DNA of 64,000 bases from Methylomonas koyamae. Lineage in GTDB: Bacteria; Pseudomonadota; Gammaproteobacteria; Methylococcales; Methylomonadaceae. The DNA lies in the NCBI RefSeq assembly GCF_019669905.1, contig NZ_AP019777.1:4154001-4218000 (forward strand). The letters run 5' to 3'. A program made the position numbers and the translations under genes. Below, one piece after another: positions 15,440-36,861 of this stretch (the first letter of the stretch is position 1; each line of letters opens with the position of its first letter). The notes under the pieces are model-generated. The model did no database searches. It was given only the letters and a program-made list of their open reading frames with translations, and had not been told where the DNA came from.

Positions 15440-16048
15440 TGATGTGTCACTGTCTTAAGGTTCGCGCAGCGACTATTATCAATGGAAAACACGCCCGACC
15501 TCGCAAAGGGCCCAATCGCAAGAAGCCATGACCGATGAGATCAAACTGGTATTTGACGATGAAAAGTCACGCGCTGGTTCGCCACGAATAGCCAAGCGCC
15601 TTAACGATGAGGGCTGGCTTTATCTAGTGGTTGTCTTGGAATTGTATTCACGCAAAGCCATCGGTTGGGCGATGGCAGAACACATGACTACCAGCCTGGT
15701 TTGCGACGCTTTGATTATGGGATTGTGACGGCGAAAGCGTTCGAAAACGCCATCGTTCATTCGGATCGGGGCAGCCGGTATCGTTCGGCAGCCTATCAAG
15801 CTCTACTCAAACAATATCAATTGATTTGTAGCATGAGCAAGATAGGCGACTGCTACGATAATGCTGCCATGGAAAGCTGGAACCACCACTTCAAGGTCGA
15901 AGCCATTCTTGGAGAACGGCTACAAACACGAGCCAAAAACAAACAACAGGTCTTCGAGTACATCGAAGTGTATTACAATCGCAAACGGCTTCATTCCAAA
16001 CTGGGCTATCTGTCCACTGAAGCCTTTGAACTTAAACAAGTCTCTTAG
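15440..16048 (+). pseudogene. IS3-family transposase OrfB, internally deleted and frameshifted
   Basis: Remnants in order are [15 protein letters not shown], then [20 protein letters not shown] joined directly to [20 protein letters not shown]. The join removes roughly 60 residues, including the first catalytic aspartate of the DDE triad. A frameshift near 15720 then moves the reading to the next frame, which carries VHSDRGSRYRS (second Asp) and the end region SMSKIGDCYDNAAMESWNHH with the terminal Glu zone. Three lesions make loss of function certain. Confidence 0.9.
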
Positions 16049-20353: not shown

Positions 20354-22483
20354 TTAACCCACCCTCAGCGGCTGCGTCTGCCGCTCCGGACCCAACCGCC
20401 ATTCCTGGTGCGGCGTCCAGGCGGAGATCCAAGCCGACAGTTGTTCGGCCGGCATCGGCCTGGCGATACCGTAACCTTGGGCGTTGTCGCAGCCCAATTC
20501 CAGCAACAGCAAGCCATGGGCAGCACTTTCCACGCCTTCGGCGACGACGCGGCGGTTGAAGGCGGCGCTCAAGTTGATGATGCCGGCGACGATAGCCAGA
20601 TCCTCCGGATCGGCCAAAATATCGCGGATGAAGGATTGGTCGATTTTCAGGGTTTCGGCCGGCAGGGCTTTCAAATAGGTCAACGACGAGTAACCGGTAC
20701 CGAAATCGTCCAGCGCGAAACTGACGCCGAGTTTCTGGCATTCCCGCATCACACCGGTGACGCGGCCGATATCTTCCAGCGCGGCGGTTTCCAAAATCTC
20801 CAGTTCCAGGCAATTCGCCGCCAATTGCGGATATTGGGCAAAACCGGCTTGCAATGTGGTAACGAAATCCGCATCCAACAAATGCCGCGGCGCGATATTG
20901 ACGCTGAGCGGAATATTCAGACCGCCGGCCTGCCACTGCGCGGCATGCACCAAAGCCTGGCGCAGTACCCAGTTGCCGACGGCAATAGCCAGGTCTGAGC
21001 CTTCGATGTCCGGCAGAAACGCCGCCGGCAGCAACAAGCCACGTTCGGGATGGTGCCAGCGGATCAAGGCTTCGGCGCCCAATATCCGGCCGCTGCGCAT
21101 ATTGACTTTGGGCTGGAAGTACAGCGCCAATTCGCCGTTGCGCAATGCCGAGCCGATCCGCGCCAGGTTGCTGCCGCGTACCGAGCAGAGCCGGTCCTGC
21201 TCGCGATCGAACAGGTGGTAACGGTTTTTACCGCCCTGTTTGGCGGTGTACATGGCCTGGTCGGCATGACGCAGCAAGGTTTCGGCATCGGCCGGGTCGG
21301 CCGGAAACAGCGTGTAACCGAGGCTGGCCGAAACGCTGACGTAATGCCCGCCGATTGCGGCCGGTTCCGCCACCCGGTCCAGCATGCGCTGCAACACGGC
21401 CTGGCATTCGTGGGCCGCATTAAAATCCAGCAACAGCAACACGAATTCGTCGCCGCCGATCCTGGCTACCGTGTCGCCGGCGCGCAAACAGTCCTTGATG
21501 CGCTGCGATATCTCGATCAGTAACTGATCGCCGACATCGTGGCCGAATTGGTCGTTGATCGGCTTGAAACCGTCCAGGTCCAGATAGCACACCGCCATGG
21601 TATTGCTGGCACGGCGGGTGTGCGCCAGGGCCTGGCTCAGGCGGTCGGCCAGCAAAACCCGATTGGGGATGCCGGTCAACGGATCGAAATGGGCGATGCG
21701 TTCCAGGTCGAGTTCGTGGTTCTTCAGCGGCGTAATGTCGGCGGAAAGGCCGATGTAGTGGTGCACCCGGCCGTGTTCGTCGCGCACGACCGAAATCGAT
21801 GTCAACGCGGCGTATACCTCGCCGCTTTTACGCCGGTTCCACAACTCGCCGTTCCAGTAGCCGCTGCCGAGCAGCGAACACCACATGCTTTCGTAAAATT
21901 CGGCCGATTGCCGCCCGGATTTCAGCACGCTGGGATTTTTACCCAGGACCTCGTCCTTGCTGTAACCGGTCATTCGGCTGAACGCATTGTTGACGTCGAT
22001 GATCCGGTTTTCGGCATCGGTGATCACCACGCTGTCGTGGGTATGGGCGAATACGCTGGCGGCCAAGCGCAGAGCCGCCTCGCGCCGCTGCAACTCGCGG
22101 CGTAGCCGTTCCCGTTCCAACAGGTTGCGAATCCGCAGCCGGGCGATTTCGATATTCAGCGGCTTGGTCAGGTAGTCGGCGGCGCCCAGCGCAAAACCGT
22201 GGGTCTCGGCCTCGGCATCGTTCATCGCGGTGATGAACACGACCGGAATGTCGCGTAACCGCGGATCGAGTTTCAACCGGCGGCAAGTTTCGTAGCCGTC
22301 CATGTCCGGCATCATGATGTCCAGCAGTATCAAATCCGGCGGATCGTCCTGCGCCAGCTCCAAACCCCTGGCGCCGGAGGTGGCGATCTGGATCTGGTAA
22401 TCGTCCTGCAATGCCAATCCCAGCAGCGCCAGATTGGTCGGCATGTCGTCGATGGCAAGGATCTTCTGGTTATCTTTAGCCAT
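20354..22483 (-). CDS. REC-PAS-GGDEF-EAL response regulator
   Basis: A 709-residue c-di-GMP response regulator. The N-terminal receiver domain has the phospho-accepting aspartate in LILLDIMMPDMDG (about residue 57) and the KPLN switch lysine. A PAS domain covers about 140-255, a GGDEF domain has an intact GGDEF near 344, and an EAL domain has AEALIRW near 471 and DDFGTGYSS. It is the last gene of a six-gene minus-strand operon and starts four bases after the histidine kinase ends, so that kinase is its likely phosphodonor. The output is a change in c-di-GMP level. Confidence 0.93.
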   Translation of the reverse strand: MAKDNQKILAIDDMPTNLALLGLALQDDYQIQIATSGARGLELAQDDPPDLILLDIMMPDMDGYETCRRLKLDPRLRDIPVVFITAMNDAEAETHGFALGAADYLTKPLNIEIARLRIRNLLERERLRRELQRREAALRLAASVFAHTHDSVVITDAENRIIDVNNAFSRMTGYSKDEVLGKNPSVLKSGRQSAEFYESMWCSLLGSGYWNGELWNRRKSGEVYAALTSISVVRDEHGRVHHYIGLSADITPLKNHELDLERIAHFDPLTGIPNRVLLADRLSQALAHTRRASNTMAVCYLDLDGFKPINDQFGHDVGDQLLIEISQRIKDCLRAGDTVARIGGDEFVLLLLDFNAAHECQAVLQRMLDRVAEPAAIGGHYVSVSASLGYTLFPADPADAETLLRHADQAMYTAKQGGKNRYHLFDREQDRLCSVRGSNLARIGSALRNGELALYFQPKVNMRSGRILGAEALIRWHHPERGLLLPAAFLPDIEGSDLAIAVGNWVLRQALVHAAQWQAGGLNIPLSVNIAPRHLLDADFVTTLQAGFAQYPQLAANCLELEILETAALEDIGRVTGVMRECQKLGVSFALDDFGTGYSSLTYLKALPAETLKIDQSFIRDILADPEDLAIVAGIINLSAAFNRRVVAEGVESAAHGLLLLELGCDNAQGYGIARPMPAEQLSAWISAWTPHQEWRLGPERQTQPLRVG

Positions 22484-22487
22484 GTGC

Positions 22488-24107
22488 CTAGCCAGCCTCG
22501 GAGTTTAGCGCGGCGCGAAACAGCCGCAGTTGGGCTAAAGCTTGTTCGAACTTCATATCGTTCACCGCTTGGCCAATCGCGGCAAACCGTTCCGCCGCAA
22601 CCGGCGGCTCAACTTCGGCTTGCAGCCGCTGGTACTGGCCGACCGCCTGGAACATGTTCTTCACCAATAGCCGTTCCAGTTCGTCCAATTCTGCGCCAAG
22701 CTGCGGTAAATCGCGCAGCAACGCGATTTCCGCGGGCGGTATTGCCGCTGGCGGCTCCCGGCCGTTAAGCGCCGTCTCCGCCGCTGCCGCCGGCGATTCG
22801 ACAGCTTGGACCGCTTCCTGAGGCACCGCTCTGCCGTTGACTCCATTCGCAAGCAGCGGGCATTCGATCGGTTCCGCCCCAATCCGAAACCAAAACCTCG
22901 AGCCCTGGCCGAGCACGCTGTCCACGCCGGCTTCGCCGCCCATTAATTCGGCAAAACGCCGCACGATGGACAGGCCCAGCCCGGTGCCGGCATAGCGTCG
23001 GGTCGAACCGGCGTCGATTTGACTGAACGGCTTGAACAGCAGGCGCTGTTGTTCCGCGCCGATGCCGACGCCGGTGTCAGCCACCGAAAACTCCAGCCGC
23101 GCGCCGGCCTTGTCACGGCCGAGTTCGCGGCCCTGCAAGGCGATTTCGCCGGAGTCGCTGAATTTAATGGCGTTGCTGACCAGATTGGACAGCATTTGCC
23201 GCAGCCGAATTTGGTCGAGTAGATAGCATTGTTCGGCCGGCCCGCGCCAGACCGCGGCCAACGTCAGATTTTTTTGGCGGGCGCTTTCGCCGAACAGCGA
23301 ATGCACTTCCCGCAGAATATGGGCCGGGGCCACCGCCGCGTAATTTAATTCCAGGCGATTGGCTTCGATCTTGGATAGATCCAGCACGTCGTTCAGCAGC
23401 GTCAACAGGGTTTGGCCGGAAGACAGAATGGTGCGGGCGCACTCGCGGTGTTTTTCCGGCGAGCAGTCGGGCAGGGCCAGCAATTGCGCCATGCCGAGGA
23501 TGCCGTTCAATGGGGTACGAATTTCGTGGGACATCGTTGCCAGAAAGTTGCTTTTAGCCTTGTTTGCCGCCTCGGCAACCCGGGTTTTGATCTCGTTGCT
23601 CAAAATCAAGGCCATGTGCGAAAAAAAGGGGGTCAGATAGTCGCGCATTTGCGCGCTGCCGAGCATATCGGTCATTTTGACCACGCCGATCAATTCGTTG
23701 CCGGCCAGCAACGGCATCACCCAAGTGCAAGCGACGGCCGGCGTCGAACCGCGTAGCAGGGTATGCGCCGAATCGCTGGGCTGTTCCACGAAACGGCGCT
23801 GAGCGAATACATTGGCCACCAACGGATCGTCGATTTTGCCGACCGTACGGCGCTCGCCGGCCAAATTGGCGTATTGGATCTCGCCTTCGTCCAGATAGTA
23901 GATTTCGACGTTGCTGCCGCCCAGACTGCCGCATAAAGCCATCATCAAATTTTCCAGCATGCTGTCGACGCCGGCAATCGGGTTCAACAATTCCACCATG
24001 TGCAGAATCAGATACAGGTTGGCTTTTTCTTCCGATACTTTGCGCAAGCGGGCTTCCAGGTGCTCGATGCGGTCCAGTAATGCCTGCTGGCCGGCTGGGA
24101 CGGACAT
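22488..24107 (-). CDS. GAF-like sensor histidine kinase
   Basis: A 539-residue soluble kinase. An N-terminal coiled coil leads into a GAF-like domain (about 25-170, [18 protein letters not shown]), then a HisKA domain with the phosphorylatable His in [14 protein letters not shown] near residue 193. The ATPase domain has N-box [10 protein letters not shown]1 DTGVGIG and G2 [10 protein letters not shown] 130-residue tail rich in Ala and Glu has helix character. Its ATG shares a base with the DUF1638 stop and it precedes the response regulator, so it is embedded in the corrinoid methyl-transfer operon and probably reports on it. The ligand of the GAF-like domain is unknown. Confidence 0.92.
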
Positions 24108-24727
24108 TAGGGTTCGGCCGCCAAACGGCGTTGAATGGCATCCGCCAGCACCAATTCCAGATGGCTCAGGTCGACGTCCTGCCAGCGTAGCGGCAAATCG
24201 ACAAAGCGCGCCGCAGCCTCGGCAGCGCTGGTAAAGTCGGAGTTGCAGGGTGTGCGCAGCGCCAGAATGTATTTGTGGCTGCTGTGGAAAATCTCGCGAA
24301 CAACGGCGTTATTGTTGCCGAAGCAAGCGGTGATCATCGGCTCCCAGGTCAGGGCCCAATCTTCCAACAGAAAATAGGCGCCCTGTTCCAGCTCCTGCAT
24401 GAAACGCTCGTAACCGAGCAGCATGACGATGCAGTTTTGGCCATGAGTACGGCAGGTATGGTGGCCTTCCAGATAATTTTCCATCAACGGATGGCAACTG
24501 CCGTAGAACACCACGGTCTTCTCGCCCAGTTTCTCGCGCTCTTCCAGGGCTTGGTTCAATTCGGTCGACAAGCGGTTCAAATAATTGTGCAACGCCGAAT
24601 TCAAGTAATGGGTGTGCACGTTCCAATGGTTCTTTTCGATCAAACGGTCCACTTCCTTGCGCAGGATACCGCAGCCAACCAAGGTTAAGGCGGGTTGCGG
24701 CTCCGGATTCAAAGTAAACGTTTTCAT
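24107..24727 (-). CDS. DUF1638 domain protein of corrinoid operon
   Basis: A 206-residue protein of the DUF1638 family, which is often encoded beside corrinoid methyltransferases in methanogens and anaerobes. Conserved-looking positions include [34 protein letters not shown] and WALTWEPMI. The Cys/His density hints at metal or corrinoid contact, but no function is established. Its ATG overlaps the UROD-type methyltransferase stop by four bases (ATGA), and its own stop overlaps the kinase start by one base. Such tight coupling supports a stoichiometric role in the same pathway. Confidence 0.85.
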
Positions 24728-25752
24728 TGCCAACTCCCGTATTCGAAGGCAGCGGCCAACATCGCCCGGATATTGGCTTCCGGCACCGCCAATGGCATCA
24801 CGCCGTTGCCGAACAAGAAATGGCCGCCGGGCTTGCCGATTTCGATGATGCGTTTGACTTCGGCCCGGGTCTGCTCCGGCGTCCAGTGGATCATGCGGAT
24901 ATCGTCGATCACACCGCAGCATAGCCCCCGGTTGCCGATCAAGGCTTTGGCTTCGGCCAAATCCGCAAGCGGTCCAAGATAATGCGTCGTGATTCCCAAC
25001 TCGGCGAACACCAAATCGATGACTTCGTTGAACGGCGCCATGCCGCAATAATAGACAATACCTTCCACTCCACCCGGGACCAAGTCGCGCCGCATCCACG
25101 GCAGCACGCTGGCTTCGACTTGGCGGCGACCGACGAAATAAGGCGAACCGAACGGGGTGGAGTAGATCAGTACATCGGCGCCGGCGGCGCGCAAAGCGGC
25201 AATCTCCTGGTGGAAAAAATCGGAACATTTGCGCAGTAACTCGTCGCGCAAGTCGAACGGACCGAGCAAAAACAACTCCATCCATTTATCCATGCCCATC
25301 AGGATGGCGGGCAGCGTGGTCGAGGCCGTCGCATACGCGCAAATCGGATGGGTGGCGCCGACTTCGTCGGCCAATATCGACAGACATTCGCCGATCGGCT
25401 GCCAGGCTTCGGTTTGAGTGATGTCGGCCGGGATTTCGAATTTAGCGATGTCGTCCAGGCTTTTGATCACGAAGTCGGCAACATTCGGCACGCCGTCGTC
25501 CGCGAACAGGATTTCTTTACAACCCAATAGTTCGGCCTCTTTACCGACATAGTGCAAACTCCAAACATTGTCGTGGCCGTACCGCCGTTGCATGCGTAAT
25601 TGGGCTTCGGCGACCGCGGCACCGTCGGCAAAATAGTTTTGCGGCCGCAGGCCCATTTCGCGGGCGCCTTGGTCGAGCAAGTTGCAAAACACCGGAATTC
25701 GCGGCGCCGGAGTGCCGTTTTGCGCGGCGGCCAATATTTGTAGCGGCGTCAC
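24724..25752 (-). CDS. UROD-type corrinoid methyltransferase
   Basis: A 342-residue protein of the uroporphyrinogen decarboxylase/MtaA-MtbA superfamily, which in corrinoid systems moves a methyl group between a corrinoid protein and a thiol or pterin acceptor. The zinc-binding motif H-x-C-G of MtaA appears here as YYCG, keeping the Cys but with Tyr for His. A CCG motif (GLCCGVID) and GNGVMPL near the C-terminus fit the superfamily. The start is a GTG overlapping the corrinoid-protein stop (GTGA). A longer frame upstream is only the shadow of that gene. The substrate cannot be deduced; the altered His argues against classical MtaA activity. Confidence 0.82.
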   Translation of the reverse strand: MTPLQILAAAQNGTPAPRIPVFCNLLDQGAREMGLRPQNYFADGAAVAEAQLRMQRRYGHDNVWSLHYVGKEAELLGCKEILFADDGVPNVADFVIKSLDDIAKFEIPADITQTEAWQPIGECLSILADEVGATHPICAYATASTTLPAILMGMDKWMELFLLGPFDLRDELLRKCSDFFHQEIAALRAAGADVLIYSTPFGSPYFVGRRQVEASVLPWMRRDLVPGGVEGIVYYCGMAPFNEVIDLVFAELGITTHYLGPLADLAEAKALIGNRGLCCGVIDDIRMIHWTPEQTRAEVKRIIEIGKPGGHFLFGNGVMPLAVPEANIRAMLAAAFEYGSWQ

Positions 25753-26414
25753 GGTTTCACCTCGCGGATCAGTTCGACAATGGTTTTGGCGGCATTGACG
25801 CCGTCGGCGGCCCAGGCGTCGGCGCCGACCTTCAAATAAAGCTCGGTGTCGAAACGGTAAGGCGCGCCGCCCACCGCCAGTTTGATCCGATCTTCCAAGC
25901 CGCGCTCCTTCAGCAGCGCCCTCACCTTCAGGCTGCCGTTTTCGCCGATCGCGGTGTGTACCATCATCGCCGAAATAGCGATGACCTGCGCCTGCTCGGC
26001 CACCGCGGCATCGACGAAACGCTCGGCGCTGACGTTGGAGCCGAGATCGACGACATCGACCATCAACGACTTCAGGCAACCGGAGACGATGCGTTTACCG
26101 AGCGAATGCAGATCGCCGTAGGCGGCGCCGATCACGACCCGGCCTATCATTTCCGGCGGCTTGCTGAATTTTTCCAGCATTTTTTCGGTGACGTCCGCGG
26201 CGATCTGCGCGGTCATGAAGTGTTGGGCCAGATTGGCGTCGGGGTCTTGTTCGATGAAGGCCATCATTTGTTCGACGGCCGGAATCACCAGCTTGAACAC
26301 GATGTCTTCGGCGCTGAAGCCTTCCTGCAGCGCCCGGTTGACAACGTTGAGCGCGGTTTGTTTGTCGGTTTCGAACACCGCGTCGTTGTAAGCTTGAATG
26401 TAGGCCTCAAGCAT
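25749..26414 (-). CDS. Corrinoid (B12-binding) methyltransferase carrier protein
   Basis: A 221-residue methyl carrier like MtbC/MttC/MtaC. The N-terminal helical cap domain (1-90) is followed by the B12-binding Rossmann domain with the base-off signature GDLHSLGKRIVSG, in which His replaces the lower axial ligand of cobalamin. VDLGSNVSAERFVDAA and LAVGGAPYRFD complete the cofactor pocket. It is the second gene of the operon, five bases after the activator gene. The protein would shuttle a methyl group from an unknown donor methyltransferase to the UROD-type enzyme. Confidence 0.92.
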   Translation of the reverse strand: MLEAYIQAYNDAVFETDKQTALNVVNRALQEGFSAEDIVFKLVIPAVEQMMAFIEQDPDANLAQHFMTAQIAADVTEKMLEKFSKPPEMIGRVVIGAAYGDLHSLGKRIVSGCLKSLMVDVVDLGSNVSAERFVDAAVAEQAQVIAISAMMVHTAIGENGSLKVRALLKERGLEDRIKLAVGGAPYRFDTELYLKVGADAWAADGVNAAKTIVELIREVKP

Positions 26415-26419
26415 CGTGT

Positions 26420-28045
26420 TTACTCCGTAGCGCCGATGGGTTGCAGGCGCAAGTGGTCGATGAAGCGGTTTTCGTATTCGACAACCCCGCCGAGATTGAC
26501 GACCTCGATCCGCTGCGTGATTTCGGCTTTGAATTTACCCGGCTCCGCCGCCAGCAACAGTTTCTCGCAGCCGGCCAGACTGGCGTCGGCCAGCAGCCGG
26601 AAACGCGCCGGACTCAAAACCGGCAGCAGGCCGAGACGGATGGCGGCGGACAGTTGCAAATGCCGGCCGAAACTACCGCAAATCCAGAAGCTGTCGAGGC
26701 GGGCCAAATCGAGCCCGGCGAACACCGCTAATTGTGCCATGGCCGCCGCGGTCGAAGCTTTAGCGCGCTGGAAAATGTCGATGTCGCTCGCAAAAATAGC
26801 GGTACGCGGATTGTCCGGGTCCAACCGCAAGCCCGCCGCCGGTTGCGGCGCGGCGAAACGGCCGGACGGCTTCAACAGCCCCTCCGCCAGCAGCAGCGCA
26901 ACGGCATCGATAAAGCCGCTACCGCAAAAACCACGGGCCGGCGCGGCGTCTAGGGTATGTAACCGCGGGATGCCGGCGCCGGGCTCGACCCGGTGGATTG
27001 CCCCCGCCTCCGCGCCGATACCGTTACGGATGCCGACGCCTTCGAATGCCGGACCGCCCGGCACCGAAGTAGCCCATATGCGGCTGCCGTCCCACAACGC
27101 GATCTCGGTATTGGTGCCGAAATCCGCCAGCATGGCCGGAGCGGGCTGAGCGGTGATGTCGGCGGCAATCAACGCGGCCAACAGGTCCGAACCGACAAAG
27201 CCGGCCAGGGGCTGGCCAATTTCGATATCGGCATGCGGCATGCGCCAGCGCTCGCGCCAGGCGGCCGCGTCGTCCGGGATACAGGCAATCGGCGCTTGCC
27301 AATTTGCCGGATCGTATAGGCTGTCGCCGCTTGCGCCGCAAATCAGACTCAGCATCGCGGTATTGCCGACGATCAGCACTTTACCGATTTGCGCCAGAAT
27401 CGGCGCGATTTCGCCCAAATCGCGGCTAAGGATGTCGCGAACACCCTCGATCACCGCCTTGCGCGCTTCGCCGGCCAGCACCCGGCTCTGTGCCGGGGCC
27501 AGGCGTTCGGCATCCAGCCGGGTCAAAACGTCGGCGCCGTGGCTAAGCTGGGGATTGATGCCGATCCGGCTGCCGATCCGGCGGCCGGTTTGCCGCTGCC
27601 ATAGCGACAAGCGAATGTGGGTGGTGCCGAGATCGACCGCAACGCCGAAAGGATAATCGCCCAGCGCGGGGTTGCCTGCCGTGCACAAGCGGCAAGCGCT
27701 GTCCAGACTTTTCCATACCGACTCCGGTGCAGGATGCTCCAGAGACAACTTCGCCGGGCCGCGGGCATACAACTGGCAAGCCAGTCGCCGGCCCTGTGCC
27801 AGGTCTTCCGGCAACAGTTTTTGCCGTTCGGCCATTGTCGGCGGGTTGAAATCCCCTTCCAGAACGGTGATCAGACAGGCGCCGCAGGTCCCCAAGCCGC
27901 CGCAGGCGGCGCGGACCCGCAATTCGCCGGTATCCAGGGCGTGGCGCACCGACGTTTGCGGGCCGATTTGCAGCGTCCGCTGCCGGTCGCCGCAAACGAC
28001 ATCGACCGGCGATCCGGCGGCCGGCGGCCGGCTTTCGCTATTCAT
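26420..28045 (-). CDS. RACo-like ASKHA activator of corrinoid proteins
   Basis: A 541-residue reductive activator: a plant-type [2Fe-2S] ferredoxin domain (C48-x5-C54-x2-C57-x32-C90) fused to an ASKHA ATPase of the DUF4445/RACo group. ATPase signatures include VAVDLGTTHIRLSLW, MLADFGTNTEIAL, FEGVGIRNGIGAEAGA and WICGSFGRHLQ. Such proteins reduce accidentally oxidised Co(II) corrinoid back to Co(I) using ATP. The frame extends another 61 codons upstream, but that part lacks ferredoxin similarity, so the start at 28045 is preferred, though no strong ribosome site is visible. First gene of the six-gene operon. Confidence 0.88.
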   Translation of the reverse strand: MNSESRPPAAGSPVDVVCGDRQRTLQIGPQTSVRHALDTGELRVRAACGGLGTCGACLITVLEGDFNPPTMAERQKLLPEDLAQGRRLACQLYARGPAKLSLEHPAPESVWKSLDSACRLCTAGNPALGDYPFGVAVDLGTTHIRLSLWQRQTGRRIGSRIGINPQLSHGADVLTRLDAERLAPAQSRVLAGEARKAVIEGVRDILSRDLGEIAPILAQIGKVLIVGNTAMLSLICGASGDSLYDPANWQAPIACIPDDAAAWRERWRMPHADIEIGQPLAGFVGSDLLAALIAADITAQPAPAMLADFGTNTEIALWDGSRIWATSVPGGPAFEGVGIRNGIGAEAGAIHRVEPGAGIPRLHTLDAAPARGFCGSGFIDAVALLLAEGLLKPSGRFAAPQPAAGLRLDPDNPRTAIFASDIDIFQRAKASTAAAMAQLAVFAGLDLARLDSFWICGSFGRHLQLSAAIRLGLLPVLSPARFRLLADASLAGCEKLLLAAEPGKFKAEITQRIEVVNLGGVVEYENRFIDHLRLQPIGATE

Positions 28046-28413
28046 AGCGCGCCGGCCGGGCCGCGGACGGAAAAACGGCTCGGCGGCAAGCGCCGGCCTG
28101 GCGTTGAAAACATTTGCCTCGTCCCCCTGTAATTTGGCTATGCTCGCGTTAACCGTTGACAGCAGATGAAGACGCCATCCCGCAGCGGATTCACTTCCTG
28201 CGCCATGGCTATGCCGGAGCAACGCCATTTTAAAAACACAAACTTAGCCTTAATGTTCGGCTCCGGAGCCGTTCAGCGCGAGCGCGGTTGGCGTAACCCC
28301 GCGCGCAGCCTAAACTATCCGGGCAATGACCTATTTTAGCAAGGCAGCGCAAGCGCGCCCGATCCGTTCCGGAACGGCGGCGTTGCCGGACGCGCCAATT
28401 CAAGCGGAAGCCG
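28046..28413. other. Divergent intergenic region before the corrinoid operon
   Basis: These 368 bases separate the minus-strand corrinoid operon from the plus-strand REC-kinase gene and must hold both promoters. I searched for a cobalamin riboswitch and a sigma-54 promoter and found no convincing match. Part of it could be coding if the activator starts upstream at 28228. Confidence 0.5.
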
Positions 28414-29694
28414 ATGGATTCAGCCACACCCGACCAAAACCAACGCCCCACCATTTTGCTGGTGGACGACGAACCGATCAATTTATCGGTCTTCGGCGAA
28501 TTTCTGACGCGTTACTACCAGGTATTGGTGGCAACCGGCGGCCAGAGCGCGTTGAAACTGGCCAATAGCAAGGCCAAACCGGATTTGATTCTGCTGGACG
28601 TGATGATGCCGGGCATGGACGGTTACCAGGTACTGGCCGAATTGAAGGCCCAAGCCGACACCCGCGACATCCCGGTGATCTTCATCACCGCGCTGACGTC
28701 GGATCTGGAGGAAGAGCGCGGCTTGGCCTTGGGTGCGGTCGATTACATCTACAAGCCCTGCCATTTGTCGATTCTTTTGGCCCGCATCGGAACCCAACTC
28801 GAATTAAAAAAGGCCCGCGACTGGTTGCGCAACCAGAATGCCGTTTTGGAAGCGGAAGTCGAACGCCGGCAAAAGGAAAACCAGTTGGTGCAGATGCAGT
28901 TGTTGCAGTCGGAAAAGCTCGCCGCGATCGGCCAGTTGGCGGCCGGCATTGCCCACGAGATCAACAATCCGGTCGGTTTCGTCAACTCCAATCTGAATAC
29001 CTTGTCCGGCTATCTGGCAGACCTGTTCTGCGTGATGGATGCCTATGCCGCCGCGCTGGCGGCCAACCAGATCGCCGAACCGGCGCGGAGCGAGTTGCAG
29101 GCGCTACTGGCGAAAAAACAGTTAACGTATTTGCGCGAGGACATTCCGGATTTGCTGGCCGAATCGCGGGAAGGTTTGGCGCGGGTGCGCGGCATCGTCC
29201 AGGACTTGAAGGATTTCGCCCATTCCGACAGCGACACCTGGGAACTCAGCGATTTGCACAAAGGCCTGGATTCGACGCTGAACATCATTTGCAACGAATT
29301 GAAATACCACTGCAAAATCGTCAAGGAATACGCCGAGATTCCGCAGATTTATTGCCTACCGTCGCAATTGAACCAGGTCTTCATGAATCTGCTGGTCAAC
29401 GCCGGCCAAGCCATCGAAACCCAGGGCGTGGTCACCGTGCGCACCGGTTGCCAGGAAAACGAGGTTTGGGTCGAGATCGGCGACAACGGCAGAGGTATTG
29501 CCCCCGAGCACATCAGCCGCTTGTTCGAACCGTTCTTCACCACCAAACCGGTCGGCAAGGGCACCGGCCTGGGCTTGTCGATTTCGCGCAATATCGTCAC
29601 CAAGCACGGCGGCCGGATCGAAGTGGACAGCGAGCCGGGCCGGGGCAGCCGGTTTCGGGTCTGCCTGCCGATCGCTCGGCCGCAACCGGCCTGA
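28414..29694 (+). CDS. Receiver-histidine kinase hybrid
   Basis: A 426-residue soluble protein. The receiver domain is at the N-terminus (ILLVDDEPIN; Asp in LILLDVMMPGMDG near residue 62), followed by a coiled coil and a kinase core with His in GIAHEINNPVGF near 180. The ATPase domain contains NLLVNAGQAI, DNGRGIAPEH and [12 protein letters not shown]. This REC-then-kinase order is typical of relays that take phosphate from another kinase and signal onward. It is divergent from the corrinoid operon and followed 94 bases later by a stand-alone receiver. Confidence 0.92.
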   Translation: MDSATPDQNQRPTILLVDDEPINLSVFGEFLTRYYQVLVATGGQSALKLANSKAKPDLILLDVMMPGMDGYQVLAELKAQADTRDIPVIFITALTSDLEEERGLALGAVDYIYKPCHLSILLARIGTQLELKKARDWLRNQNAVLEAEVERRQKENQLVQMQLLQSEKLAAIGQLAAGIAHEINNPVGFVNSNLNTLSGYLADLFCVMDAYAAALAANQIAEPARSELQALLAKKQLTYLREDIPDLLAESREGLARVRGIVQDLKDFAHSDSDTWELSDLHKGLDSTLNIICNELKYHCKIVKEYAEIPQIYCLPSQLNQVFMNLLVNAGQAIETQGVVTVRTGCQENEVWVEIGDNGRGIAPEHISRLFEPFFTTKPVGKGTGLGLSISRNIVTKHGGRIEVDSEPGRGSRFRVCLPIARPQPA

Positions 29695-29788
29695 GCCGGA
29701 TAAGCGCGGTTCGAGCAGGGAAACTTGCACGCCGCGCGTTACGTGCCAGACTATTCGTATTCCGACAGATTTCCGACGGCCGCCCGCT

Positions 29789-30328
29789 ATGAATGCAAGT
29801 CCCGCTAAAATTTTGATCGTCGACGACGAACCCAACGTACTGAAAGCTCTCGGCCGTTTATTGAAGGCCTACGCCACGGTAACCGTGGAAAGCGCCGAGG
29901 AAGCGTTGCTGATTGCAGAGCAGCAGGCGTTCGATCTGGTGATTTCCGACTACCGGATGCCGGGCATCAATGGCATCGACTTCCTGATTCTGTTCAAACG
30001 GCTGCAACCGGATGCGATTCGGGTGGTATTGACCGGCTTTGCCGATTTGGAAGGCGCGCAGCATGCCATCAACGAGGCCGAGGTGTTCCGTTTCATCAAC
30101 AAGCCGTGGAGCAATCTGGAAATCGTCCACGTCGTGGAAAGCGGGCTGGCGCATAAACGCATGCTGCTGGAAAACCGGGCGCTGGCAGACCAAGTGCGGG
30201 CCCAGCAGAAATTGCTGGCGGAAAAGGATGCGCTGATTCGCGCGCTGGAAGCCGAGGAGCCGGGGATTACCAAGGTCAATTGGGCCGCGGACGGTTCGAT
30301 TATTCTGGACGACGCCGATCTGGAGTAA
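29789..30328 (+). CDS. Receiver-domain response regulator with coiled-coil tail
   Basis: A 179-residue protein. The receiver domain spans about 6-125 (ILIVDDEPNVLKAL; Asp in LVISDYRMPGING; RFINKPW switch region), matching the subgroup found in front of HD-GYP domains. Instead of an output domain it ends in a helical, probably coiled-coil, tail (residues 130-165) and an acidic end. It might titrate phosphate or dock on a partner such as the degenerate HD-GYP protein encoded convergently 18 bases away. A longer upstream frame is a shadow of the kinase gene; the ATG chosen begins the receiver domain. Confidence 0.88.
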   Translation: MNASPAKILIVDDEPNVLKALGRLLKAYATVTVESAEEALLIAEQQAFDLVISDYRMPGINGIDFLILFKRLQPDAIRVVLTGFADLEGAQHAINEAEVFRFINKPWSNLEIVHVVESGLAHKRMLLENRALADQVRAQQKLLAEKDALIRALEAEEPGITKVNWAADGSIILDDADLE

Positions 30329-30346
30329 TGCCGGCGGGGACCGCTC

Positions 30347-31663
30347 CTAGTGCCCCTGCCCCTGCCCCTGCCCCAGCCTGACCCGCAACACCAGGCTCTT
30401 GCCGTGCTTGCGCAAGCCGAGGATGTCTTCGACGTGTTTGTCGGTCAGAATTTGATCTTTCAGATAAAGCACGTCGTTGCATAGCACTTCCGCCGCTTCC
30501 ATGCCGGCTTGCAGTTGGGTCCAGGATATTTCGATCACCGGCCGCTCGTCGTTGGCCCGGGTTTCCTCCAGTACAGCCAGAAAAGTATCGACCACCTGCG
30601 GATCGTAATGAATGCCTTTTTTCGACAGTAGCCGGGCTTTAACCTGTTCCGTGCTCATCGTGCTGCCGGTGATACTGCCGTCCAGCATCGTGATGTATTC
30701 GCGAATCACCGTCAAAATCCGGCTGCCCAGCGGTATCGCCGCCCCCGCCAGGCCGGCCGGGTAGCCGGAACCGTCGTAATATTCGTATTGGTGGGCCACC
30801 AGTTCGGCGGCGTGGTGCAGCGGCTCGATGCCGGCCAGCAATTGGTAGCCTTCCTGGGCATGATTCAAAAAACGTTTGCGTTGTTGGCCGTTCATCGAAA
30901 AATGCGGCAGCGTCAGCAAACTGTCCGGCAGGCTCATTTTGCCGATTTGCAGCAGCAAGCCGGCAAACACCACGTTTCTGACCTCCGCCGGCGGCAAACC
31001 CAGCCGCTGCGCCACTTCCTTGGCATGTTCGGCGATGTATTTGGCGTGGCCGCTCTTGATGCCGGGACGCATTTCGATGATCCTGGCGAAGGCTTTGACC
31101 GACTCGTTGTACTGCCTTTTCAACGATTCGTTGGCTTGTTCGATCACCTGCAGCGACTTTTTCAATTGCTCGGTACGCTTTTCGACTTTTTCCTCCAGGC
31201 TGGAATTGAGTTCCTTCAATTCCAGGTTCTGGCGCTGGACGATGTCGTACAGGCGTTGGCGTTCCTCGCGCAGGCGTTTTTGGTCCAGCGCGTTGTTGAC
31301 CAGGATTTTCAGCTCGTTGTCTTCCCAGGGCTTGCTGCAGTAGCTGTAAATCCGGCCATTGTTGACTGCGGCGATGGTCGATTCGATATCGGCGTAACCG
31401 GTCAACAGAATCCGCACCGTGTCCGGATGGTTCTCCGCGGCCCGGCTCAAAAACTCGGCACCGTCCATCTGCGGCATGCGCATGTCGGAAATGATCAAAT
31501 CGATCGCTTGGGTTCGCAGGATCTCCAGGCCGGCAGCACCGCTCTCGGCCAGGTGCACGGCGTATTCCGCCGAGCGGAACAGGCGTTTCAAGGCTTTCAG
31601 TACGTTCGGCTCGTCGTCGACGAACAGCAGTTGCGCGGTCGGGGCTTCGATATTCGCATTCAT
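30347..31663 (-). CDS. Receiver protein with degenerate HD-GYP domain
   Basis: A 438-residue RpfG-like protein. The receiver domain is at the N-terminus (LLFVDDEPNVLKAL; Asp in LIISDMRMPQMDG), followed by a coiled coil and an HD-GYP-type domain from about 195. The metal-binding HD pair, normally H-D-I-G-K, reads L-Q-I-G-K, and HHE before DGSGYP reads H-Q-Y-E, so phosphodiesterase activity is unlikely even though DGSGYPAGL is kept. It may act as a c-di-GMP sensor or docking protein. The C-terminus is Gly-Gln repeated, from a hexanucleotide repeat. It lies five bases downstream of the hemerythrin kinase gene, in the same operon. Confidence 0.88.
   Translation of the reverse strand: MNANIEAPTAQLLFVDDEPNVLKALKRLFRSAEYAVHLAESGAAGLEILRTQAIDLIISDMRMPQMDGAEFLSRAAENHPDTVRILLTGYADIESTIAAVNNGRIYSYCSKPWEDNELKILVNNALDQKRLREERQRLYDIVQRQNLELKELNSSLEEKVEKRTEQLKKSLQVIEQANESLKRQYNESVKAFARIIEMRPGIKSGHAKYIAEHAKEVAQRLGLPPAEVRNVVFAGLLLQIGKMSLPDSLLTLPHFSMNGQQRKRFLNHAQEGYQLLAGIEPLHHAAELVAHQYEYYDGSGYPAGLAGAAIPLGSRILTVIREYITMLDGSITGSTMSTEQVKARLLSKKGIHYDPQVVDTFLAVLEETRANDERPVIEISWTQLQAGMEAAEVLCNDVLYLKDQILTDKHVEDILGLRKHGKSLVLRVRLGQGQGQGH
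30351..30374. repeat. Hexanucleotide microsatellite (TGCCCC)x4
   Basis: Four perfect tandem hexamers end the degenerate HD-GYP gene and encode its terminal Gly-Gln repeats. In-frame changes in copy number would alter only tail length. Confidence 0.85.
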
Positions 31664-31668
31664 GGCAG

Positions 31669-33459
31669 TTAGGGCGCGAGGTTGGCGGAAGGTAGCGGCA
31701 GCAGGATTCGGAACACCGTGCCTTGGCCCGGAGCCGAATCGACCTGAATGTCGCCCTGGTGGTCTTTGACAATTTTATAGGATAGCGACAAACCCAAGCC
31801 GGTCCCCTTACCGACCGGCTTGGTGGTAAAAAACGGATCGAAAATCTTGGCTTTGACCTCGTCGCTCATGCCGCTGCCGGTGTCGGCAATCTCGACAAAA
31901 ACCCGGTCGCCGCCGCGGTAGCCGGTGCGTATGGTAATTTTGCCGAAATCCGGGATGGCCTGGGCGGCGTTGACCAGCAAGTTCATGAATACCTGGTTGA
32001 GCTGGGCGCCGACGCAGGCGAAAGGCTTGACGCCGCCGTATTGTTTGACGACTTCCGCCTTGTATTTCAACTCGTTGTTGACGATGTTCAGTGTAGAGTC
32101 CAAACCGGCCTCCAGATCGAACACGGCTTGCTCCTGCCGGTCGATGCGGGAGAAATCGCGCAGGTCCTGGACGATGTTTTTGGCGCGGGTGGCACCCTCC
32201 AACGATTCCAGGACCAGGTCGGCCGCGTCCGCTTTGATGAAGTCAAGATCGACCCGTTTTTTAAAGGCGCGGAATTCGGCGGCGACCGGATCGCCCGCGG
32301 GTAAATTTTCGGCCAAGCGCTCGGCCAGAGTGGCCGCAAACGCCAATTCTCCGATGTACTCCTGCAAGGTATTCAGGTTGGAATAAATATAACCGAGCGG
32401 ATTGTTGATTTCGTGGGCAACGCCGGCCGCCAACTGGCCGATCGACGCCATTTTTTCGGCCTGGACCAAATGCGTCTGCGCTTCCTGCAACTGCCGGTTA
32501 AGCTCGATTTGCTGGTTTTTTTCCCGTTCCAGGTTTTGGTTGGTTGCAGTCAGCTCCCGGGTCCGCGCCGCGACCTGCGCCTCCAGTTTCTGGTTCAGCT
32601 TGGACAATGCGGCTTCGGCCTTTTTGCGCAAGGTGATATCCATGCCGCAGCCCATCAAGCCGGCGAATTCGCCGTTGCGGCGAATGCGGGGCGCTGCGGT
32701 TTCCAGGATCCAGGTGATTTTGCTTTCCGCGCCGAGCAGGCGGTACTCGATCTTTAACTTGGTTTGTTCGCCGGCGGCCTTGCCGTAAGCGGCCATGACC
32801 TGCGCCCGGTCTTCCGGATGAATCACCCCCATCCAACGCTGTTTTTCCAGTTCGTTACGCTGCAAGCCGAAGGATTTGAACCAGAACCGGTTGCAAAATA
32901 TCGGCATATGCTTGGCGTTGGTGATCCAGATCAGCGCCGGCAGATTGTCTGCCAGGTCTTTGAATCGCTCCTCGCTTTCCCGCAACGCCGAATACAGGTT
33001 GCTGTGTAGCACGTCCAGGTGTTCGCGGCGGTCGAGTTCGATCCCGGCGGCATCCACGCCCTTGTTCAAACTGATCGCCATCAGTTTGTCGGTCTTCAGA
33101 ATATGGTGGCACAGCCAGTCGACCAAAAAGTCCAGCAAGTCGCGGGAAATCGCCGAACGGTCGTGCTCGGCCTCGCTCTGCACCCCGCGGATTTTGTCGA
33201 CGAATTCGCGGTGTTCCTTGCTGTGTTTGGCAAACAGCTCCGGGTTGAAATCGGCGGCGGCCATCAATTCCTCTTCGTGGCGAAAATGGTAGGCGGTGTA
33301 GTCGGCCAGTTCGCCGACCGTCGCGACCATACTCTCGCTGTCGCCGCCCACCGCCACCAGTTCGTCCAGCTTGTTGATCAGCTCCACCAGCTTCTGGTGC
33401 TGGCCGTCGACGCTATCCAGGCCGACGAGCAACTGATCGTTCCAGGTCAAAATACTCAT
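31669..33459 (-). CDS. Hemerythrin-PAS-histidine kinase
   Basis: A 596-residue oxygen- or redox-sensing kinase. The N-terminal bacteriohemerythrin domain keeps all diiron ligands: H21, H58, E62, H79, H83, H119 and D124 (motifs DGQH, HFRHEE, HSKEH, HHILKTD). A PAS/PAC domain covers about 165-290, a coiled coil follows, then the kinase with His in [12 protein letters not shown] near 350, [19 protein letters not shown] and [11 protein letters not shown]. Hemerythrins bind O2 at the diiron site, so this couples oxygen to phosphorylation. The likely target is the receiver/HD-GYP-like protein five bases downstream. Confidence 0.93.
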
Positions 33460-36309: not shown

Positions 36310-36861
36310 TTACCACTGCGACTCGCCGGTTTCCGGGTCGTACATTTCGTGGAAGATTTTATGGCGGTTGGCAATCAGTTCGTCGATGCTGGGCGAGTTG
36401 CTCATCGCTCTGGAGATCGCCAGTTTCATTGCCTCGTAATTGGTGCGGTACAGGTCTTTGCGGTCCAGGTTCGGGTTGTCGGCGCAGGACGGATCGATCC
36501 AGATCATCGCGATGATGCACAATTCGTTGGCCTGCAACCTTGGAATCACGCCGTCCGCCACGCTATCGATTACCGCGTCGGCCACGGCCGATTGCACCGG
36601 GCCGCCCAACAGGTTGACGTAAGCCGACGACTTGATCGTGACTTTCGGCACCATGATCGTGGCCGGGCGCACTTGCTGGTTGGTGGCGCGAATCGCGAAC
36701 ATCCGGGTATGGCCCGCGGTTTGGCCCATCAGATTGGCGAAGGCGTGGCCGGCCGGACCTTTGACGTCGCCGATCAGGATTTCCGGCATCGCGTCGGTGC
36801 CTTGGCCTTCGCTGGAAAATACGGTGGCTTCGCCGGTTCTAAACCAAAATGAATCTGACAT
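36310..36861 (-). CDS. Formaldehyde-activating enzyme homologue lacking catalytic His
   Basis: A 183-residue member of the Fae family, whose founding enzyme condenses formaldehyde with tetrahydromethanopterin. Conserved segments are ILIGD, AFANLM, RPATIMVPKVTIKS, DSVADGVIP and NYEAMKLAISRAM. Aligning by eye to the TGEA...IIG N-terminal region, the catalytic His17 of classical Fae (A-H-I-D) is A-M-P-E here, with Met25 in its place and a three-residue insertion before it. The C-terminus extends past the usual end. It is therefore probably a Fae2/Fae3-type paralogue with a regulatory or carrier role rather than the main enzyme. It supports a methylotroph host. Confidence 0.88.
   Translation of the reverse strand: MSDSFWFRTGEATVFSSEGQGTDAMPEILIGDVKGPAGHAFANLMGQTAGHTRMFAIRATNQQVRPATIMVPKVTIKSSAYVNLLGGPVQSAVADAVIDSVADGVIPRLQANELCIIAMIWIDPSCADNPNLDRKDLYRTNYEAMKLAISRAMSNSPSIDELIANRHKIFHEMYDPETGESQW

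Follow-up and report, generated by a model that had tools for sequence, protein, structure and literature searches.

The window studied here is a 64,000-nucleotide stretch of the Methylomonas koyamae genome (contig NZ_AP019777.1, positions 4,154,001 to 4,218,000), and our subject is a run of six minus-strand genes within it that joins proteins of corrinoid-dependent methyl transfer to a two-component pair with cyclic di-GMP (c-di-GMP) domains. In gene order, the run contains the following features, the sensor domain being a part of the kinase.

26420..28045, minus strand: RACo/RamA-like reductive activator with [2Fe-2S] and ASKHA ATPase domains (Pfam RACo_C_ter 161 bits, Raco_middle 76, Fer2 37.7)
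25749..26414, minus strand: corrinoid (B12-binding) protein of the methyltransferase type (Pfam B12-binding 71.9 bits, B12-binding_2 21.5, cut-off 23)
24724..25752, minus strand: UROD-type methyltransferase homologue lacking the zinc triad of MtaA, GTG start (Pfam URO-D 121 bits; alignment to 4ay7)
24107..24727, minus strand: DUF1638 protein (Pfam 101.8 bits; Rossmann-like AlphaFold2 model, predicted local distance difference test (pLDDT) score 88.5)
22488..24107, minus strand: histidine kinase with H-box and, by eye, no transmembrane part (HisKA 78.7, HATPase_c 94.6 bits)
23562..24071, minus strand: N-terminal coiled coil and divergent GAF sensor domain of the kinase (alignment A1, 21 rows; AlphaFold2; Foldseek)
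20354..22483, minus strand: REC-PAS-GGDEF-EAL response regulator (Pfam Response_reg 84, PAS_9 62.7, GGDEF 166, EAL 221 bits)

All six reading frames are open and lie back to back. From the activator onward, they are joined by a 5-base gap (activator to corrinoid protein), a GTGA overlap, an ATGA overlap, a one-base TAATG overlap, and a 4-base gap. A first-pass annotation of the window had described such a tight run, with overlaps or gaps of at most five bases and these same three overlaps, and the junction sequences agree with it on every point. For the activator, an alternative in-frame ATG upstream at 28228 is a possible start. Between 19900 and 28700, neither promoter-like matches (2 versus 3.0 in shuffled sequences) nor terminator-like matches (15 versus 12.7) are in excess. 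On the evidence of its layout, the six-gene operon is real.

The protein families of the operon score above their Pfam cut-offs, except for the B12-binding_2 cap domain and the N-terminal GAF-like part of the kinase, which both fall below. The two-component domains (HisKA and HATPase of the kinase, REC, GGDEF, and EAL) are all above cut-off, and the GGDEF and EAL motifs appear intact by eye; phosphotransfer between the two proteins is predicted.

A conserved sensor domain is linked to the methyl-transfer module

The gene that follows DUF1638 usually opens with a stretch of ∼170 residues comprising a coiled coil and a divergent GAF domain, as seen by tblastn with the six window proteins, by inspection of open reading frames, and in the loci of a corrinoid-protein scan of species genomes, which returned 39 loci. 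The alignment of this sensor domain from 21 loci (A1) has 13 invariant columns. Against the Pfam GAF models it stays below cut-off (21 of 28.6 and 19.3 of 22.4 bits); its fold is that of a GAF domain, as judged from an AlphaFold2 model (pLDDT 85.5) whose best Foldseek matches are GAF domains (E 5e-07). No cysteine is invariant in A1, the commonest cysteine columns being filled in 12/21 and 10/21 rows.

The sensor domain and UROD occur together across genomes. In the family sample (131 genomes), the sensor was found in 26 genomes and UROD in 27, and all 26 sensor copies lie within 2.4 kb of UROD. In the phylum sample (398 Pseudomonadota genomes), the sensor is present in 11 genomes and a close UROD (E below 1e-100) in the same 11, at most 1 kb apart in all of them. 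The class sample (369 genomes) contains four genomes with five sensor copies, three linked to the module and two unlinked. Of the 39 distinct sensor copies in the family, class, and phylum samples, 37 stand beside the module. The condition that the first-pass annotation had named as refuting, a kinase and regulator never next to the corrinoid genes, is thus contradicted. For the larger samples, scoring was restricted to the top candidates of each genome, and copies may be missed. These counts are not independent events, because the genomes are related by descent. The complete genome of Methylomonas sp. LW13 (L011) carries all six genes, and the closest match to the window corrinoid protein comes from Methylomonas sp. 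SURF-1 (97%). The genome of the window itself (5.10 Mb, two contigs) encodes one DUF1638 protein and one copy of the sensor domain.

The outputs behind the sensor domain vary

Loci of the same form as the window, here termed type I, number 52: 32 from the corrinoid-protein scan, the window, and 19 fetched via a sensor or UROD match. The last group is not a blind sample, because it was chosen by that match, and some of the 52 are close relatives of one another. Where UROD is present and at least 3.5 kb of downstream sequence is available, a kinase or GGDEF-EAL protein is encoded downstream within 7 kb in every case (44/44).

The kind of output differs. A kinase with a REC-PAS-GGDEF-EAL partner follows in the window and in most Methylomonas loci; elsewhere we found a hybrid kinase with a REC-PAS-GGDEF-EAL partner, a hybrid kinase with Hpt (L024), and a PAS-kinase (Terasakiella, L030). 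In L023 and L029, PAS-PAS-GGDEF-EAL-CZB domains are in the same chain as the sensor, and in L033 a corrinoid protein, UROD, and a sensor-kinase were all that was found. The same variety is seen among 120 listed of the 147 sensor homologues, with 56 hybrid kinases, 15 kinases, 38 GGDEF-EAL proteins, 10 GGDEF proteins, and 1 protein with neither. In a UROD tree of 28 rows, L023 with its GGDEF-EAL output and L028 with its hybrid kinase are sister loci (support 93/88); support is weak at 9 of the 25 inner branches. No DNA-binding domain was detected among the outputs examined with Pfam. Judged from these gene arrangements, the GAF-like domain is the conserved element that joins the module to its output, and the kinase and regulator are exchangeable.

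In one locus (L077:11459-12469, plus strand), an NMT1/THI5-like binding protein gene lies between the sensor and a hybrid kinase. Genes of similar size and start occupy the same place in L076, L078, and L079.

In a second form, DUF1638 is fused to the output

A second form of the system (type II) was recognized in genome G432, where genes for a distant corrinoid protein (32%) and a distant UROD (30%) are followed by one for a single DUF1638-GAF-like-PAS-GGDEF protein. Its DUF1638 part scores 28.6 bits (cut-off 27); the GAF-like stretch was assigned by eye. The N-terminal part of this fusion has at least 224 homologues among 5.8 billion proteins, and the 120 listed of these comprise 64 kinases, 12 hybrid kinases, 39 GGDEF proteins, and 5 in which no output was detected.

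A search of the class sample for type II gave six places in five genomes, with corrinoid protein and UROD directly upstream in 6/6; one of these loci (L071) ends at a contig end, and another (L068) has only PAS after DUF1638. The phylum search also gave nine weaker UROD hits, all of type II. They have a corrinoid protein upstream in 9/9 and a DUF1638-kinase fusion downstream in 7, the other two (L093 and L087) being interrupted by a contig end. Azoarcus sp. KH32C carries the type II form on plasmid pAZKH. Of 10 type II proteins with a DUF1638 match, 7 reach 27 bits, and L069 (25.3), L070 (22.6), and P0187 (24.6) stay below; further scores are 43.8 bits (L089) and 22.5 bits (Azoarcus). These gene fusions show that, in the predicted proteins, DUF1638 is physically coupled to outputs. 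One type II locus (L069:3825-7307) has two tandem corrinoid-protein/UROD pairs ahead of one DUF1638 kinase, perhaps two donors for one sensor.

Could signaling genes have come to lie beside a methyltransferase operon fortuitously, or under loose selection? The surroundings are rich in other kinases and HD-GYP proteins, the genomes are kinase-rich, and shared descent inflates the counts. We nevertheless consider chance clustering very improbable and reject it on the linkage and fusion counts: sensor and UROD co-occur in the same genomes and are adjacent in 11/11 and 26/26 cases, and gene fusions come in addition. On these comparative grounds, the link between the methyl-transfer and signaling halves is not chance.

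On the output, the first-pass annotation needs a correction: c-di-GMP is not constant. A GGDEF, EAL, or HD-GYP gene lies within 7 kb on either side in 27/44 type I loci, and 6/14 type II loci with at least 3.5 kb downstream have no such gene within 7 kb. As a defining output, c-di-GMP is therefore too narrow.

Conserved and lost features of the methyl-transfer proteins

We aligned UROD with MtaA (4ay7) at the positions that we take to be the zinc ligands of MtaA (His-x-Cys ... Cys). Type I proteins have Tyr at the His-237 position (47/47) and Cys at the second ligand (43/47), and the third-ligand Cys is found in 0/47; the window UROD accordingly has Tyr, Cys, and no Cys. The Tyr for His noted in the first-pass annotation is therefore confirmed, and the third ligand is absent in addition. 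Type II proteins have His-Ala-His at these positions (17/17). With the zinc triad lost in both types, neither should activate a thiol as MtaA does. Against NCBIfam models, the window UROD scores 59 of 400 (MtaA), 55 of 235 (mtaA_cmuA), and 44 of 600 bits (MtbA), below the curated cut-offs.

The D-x-H-x-x-G motif of the corrinoid protein is intact, with Asp-101, His-103, and Gly-106 invariant (alignment A2, 20 rows), and the protein misses the curated cut-offs of the specific models (TIGR02370 97 of 215, MtgC 85 of 370, and MtbC 83 of 350 bits). The activator combines ASKHA and 2Fe-2S domains, with PF14574, PF17651, and PF00111 above cut-off, and likewise misses the specific models (AcsV 182 of 800, RamA 75 of 500 bits). 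It is encoded in 48/51 type I loci, the exceptions being L033, L057, and L058. The window DUF1638 protein (PF07796) scores 101.8 bits against a gathering score of 27. Across both forms, Cys-78 and Cys-99 of DUF1638 are invariant and Cys-19 nearly so (alignment A4, 32 rows), and this conservation points to a metal or iron–sulfur site, or a reactive thiol. In one locus (L085:2550-4355, minus strand), corrinoid protein and UROD are fused into a chain of 601 residues with the corrinoid part N-terminal.

That type I and type II have both lost the zinc site also speaks for a reading in which corrinoid protein and UROD bind without turnover. They would then form a corrinoid-based sensor of redox state, oxygen, or light, in which UROD is a scaffold that shields the cofactor. 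The oxygen lability of Co(I) is established chemistry, B12-binding domains serve as photosensors in CarH, and RACo was not seen in 16 type II loci. However, UROD is strongly conserved (87 invariant columns in the 18 rows of alignment A3), and type I retains an ATP-driven activator, which suggests a catalytic cycle through Co(I). We therefore regard binding without turnover as improbable.

Genomic surroundings and the methyl donor

A search of the 5.1-Mb genome gave no homologue of MttB or MtaB. The absence of a donor-side methyltransferase of the MttB or MtaB type, noted in the first-pass annotation, thus extends to the whole genome, and methylamine or methanol donor enzymes of these types were rejected as candidates. 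B12-binding_2 matches three proteins of the genome: the operon protein, an open frame of 1226 residues that is presumably MetH, and what is by eye a MerR-type regulator. The latter has a B12-binding cap domain and is CarH-like by eye (G000:C1:2595123-2595329; L002:1075-1977).

We clustered the neighbors of 48 loci and considered families that recur in four or more. Besides the module, these are signaling families; the exceptions are a DUF815 ATPase (7 Methylomonas-type loci), a LysR gene (5 Methylomonas-type loci), and a multicopper oxidase, all taken as local synteny. Another recurring family (5 loci) resembles, by eye, the corrinoid gene read in antisense. No donor, acceptor, transporter, or one-carbon (C1) gene recurs beside the module in at least 4 of the 48 loci.

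This last result bears on whether the module could be the regulated target instead of the sensor, that is, an enzyme that demethylates a methylated substrate and has a dedicated regulatory kinase for feedback or substrate control. The RACo gene in 48/51 type I loci implies turnover. In the accessible text on Phaeobacter, RamA-like and DUF1638 proteins serve a catalytic split methionine synthase (PMC5764234), and that on Methanosarcina describes methyltransferase-associated kinases in the control of methyl-sulfide metabolism (PMC6944256). On the other side, the expected donor, acceptor, transport, and C1 genes do not recur, the zinc triad is missing, GGDEF-EAL outputs and DUF1638 fusions are by themselves no transcription regulators, and no DNA-binding domain was seen among the outputs examined with Pfam. 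A regulated demethylation enzyme thus seems unlikely to us, but it is the strongest of the alternatives.

Upstream of the operon lies a divergent gene that recurs beside the module in 12/48 loci of relatives and is possibly associated with it.

28414..29694, plus strand: divergent REC-histidine kinase (Pfam)

This gene opens a signaling cluster (window 28414-33459) of REC-kinase, REC protein, REC-HD-GYP, and hemerythrin-PAS-kinase, parts of which recur near the module in relatives. On the other side of the operon, an open reading frame at window 15665-16048 (plus strand) resembles the end of an IS3-type transposase by eye.

The Fae gene (formaldehyde-activating enzyme, 201.5 bits) lies at window 36310-36861 (minus strand), ∼8 kb from the operon and near genes that look cytochrome-bd-like by eye; L007 also has a Fae homologue near the module. 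On pAZKH, the type II system of Azoarcus sp. KH32C stands between formaldehyde-oxidation genes and a pyrroloquinoline quinone (PQQ) methanol/ethanol dehydrogenase, and in an Azonexaceae metagenome-assembled genome (L024), a PQQ dehydrogenase gene is located ∼6 kb downstream of UROD. When 24 proteins of this methanol-oxidation island of Azoarcus were compared with the other loci, only Fae (window and L007) and a YncE-like protein (L025) matched besides an HD protein. Methanol as the ligand is suggestive only on this gene content; methanol or another C1 compound as the donor is our leading guess.

In Gracilinema (L039:8572-10547), the genes for a B12-binding protein and a kinase overlap, possibly another corrinoid sensor; a Treponema locus (L040) matches in the same way.

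A corrinoid methyl-transfer module as probable sensory input

From gene content and conservation, we conclude that the operon probably encodes a signaling system with the corrinoid methyl-transfer module as its input. Of the two functions offered in the first-pass annotation, a methyl-donor sensor gains support from the conserved synteny, the swapped outputs, and the DUF1638-kinase and DUF1638-GGDEF fusions, whereas an unusual C1 salvage route is not favored, as the recurring neighbors of the module include no gene for a donor, an acceptor, or transport.

In this signaling system, UROD would bring a methyl donor to the corrinoid protein. The corrinoid, held as Co(I) by RACo and DUF1638, would then become methylated or, alternatively, oxidized in the presence of oxygen or under a shortage of reductant or ATP; the pairing of RACo with DUF1638 is suggested by genetics in another bacterium. 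DUF1638 and the GAF domain would sense what state the corrinoid is in, or the product of UROD, and adjust the output attached to them, the signal presumably running in this direction. In M. koyamae, the kinase presumably phosphorylates the REC-PAS-GGDEF-EAL protein as its likely partner, and c-di-GMP would change.

The more specific proposal is a new class of sensor, in which a UROD without zinc site loads the methyl group of a small donor onto the corrinoid and DUF1638 and the GAF domain turn the cobalt state into a kinase or c-di-GMP output. We give this proposal an even chance. The odds are likewise balanced for DUF1638 as the transducer, which one branch would have as part of the output protein and the other as a separate protein.

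Several observations weigh against a sensory role of the module. Two sensor copies are unlinked (G213:C57, which is L051, and G116, which is L053), and a profile check found no corrinoid protein, UROD, or DUF1638 in the 18 kb around them. Among the 36 genomes of the family to which G213 belongs, one and the same genome has both sensor and UROD. Conversely, in the UROD genome that lacks the sensor (G464, L054), a PAS hybrid kinase and a REC-HD-GYP protein stand where the GAF sensor would be, and Candidatus Methylobacter oryzae (L014) has RACo, corrinoid protein, and DUF1638, with UROD and sensor absent there. In L076–L079, the sensor has no kinase in the same chain, and 17/44 type I loci lack a c-di-GMP enzyme within 7 kb. 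RACo is found in 0/16 type II loci within the fetched stretches, some of which are short. The lost zinc ligands of UROD may mean that methyl transfer was abandoned, a structure search with the DUF1638 model gave no clear structural relative, and a multicopper oxidase gene is near 4/48 loci (L008, L011, L057, and L062) from two genera. Finally, linkage and fusion could also be a means of controlling a catabolic enzyme by feedback.

Oxygen destroys Co(I), and RACo requires ATP and electrons. The proposed sensor should therefore respond to donor and redox state together, and, if true, cells would read methyl-donor supply and reducing power jointly, which would suit life at oxic–anoxic boundaries. 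A class of enzymes known from C1 metabolism and methionine synthesis would then double as a sensory receptor in methanotrophs and other Pseudomonadota, DUF1638 would gain a testable role, and methylotrophs a candidate for sensing C1 compounds. Corrinoid supply, redox state, and control of lifestyle by c-di-GMP would be connected.

Comparison with known systems

The closest counterparts on the signaling side are MsmS and RdmS of Methanosarcina acetivorans, methyltransferase-associated kinases tied to methyl-sulfide genes (PMC6944256), for which redox and dimethyl sulfide are described as inputs (PMC6944256; PMC11784639); a 2025 paper revises the autophosphorylation of RdmS (PMC11784639). Like the kinase of the operon, they are PAS/GAF kinases linked to methyl-transfer genes. 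MsmS and RdmS are marked by heme- or thiol-based redox sensing in GAF/PAS domains; the sensor domain of the operon has no invariant Cys in A1. According to the accessible parts of these papers, however, MsmS and RdmS have no phosphorylatable His and their regulators no REC, whereas the kinase of the operon has an H-box (HisKA 78.7 bits) and REC partners, often with c-di-GMP domains. DUF1638 can share a chain with the kinase in the system described here; those descriptions, as far as accessible, contain neither an operon nor a fusion that joins UROD, corrinoid protein, or DUF1638 to the kinase.

On the enzymatic side, the operon shares its pair of DUF1638 and RACo/RamA-like proteins with two aerobic systems, known to us from excerpts. 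These are the split methionine synthase of Phaeobacter inhibens, with RamA-like and DUF1638 proteins for its reactivation, and the MtgC system of Ruegeria pomeroyi; in them, a corrinoid methyltransferase is served by DUF1638 together with a ferredoxin-DUF4445 (RACo/RamA-like) protein (PMC5764234, PMC12478193). These systems make methionine or demethylate glycine betaine, and the excerpts mention no signaling output (PMC5764234, PMC12478193).

MtaA, MtbA, and CmuA belong to the same UROD family and are the best NCBIfam matches of the operon UROD, but their zinc triad His-x-Cys...Cys is absent from it and the scores are far under the cut-offs. MEDS and PocR domains of methanogens and methylotrophs are predicted to sense simple C1 or hydrocarbon compounds. 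They have the same proposed task, a C1-related kinase input, but by their description are single small domains and not an enzyme module; a MEDS kinase is mentioned in the accessible text of PMC11784639.

In the literature located, mostly open-access and seen in part, a coupling of a corrinoid module to signaling is undescribed. Each protein family of the operon is known, and their coupling, with a function deduced from genomes alone, would represent a new kind of sensory input.

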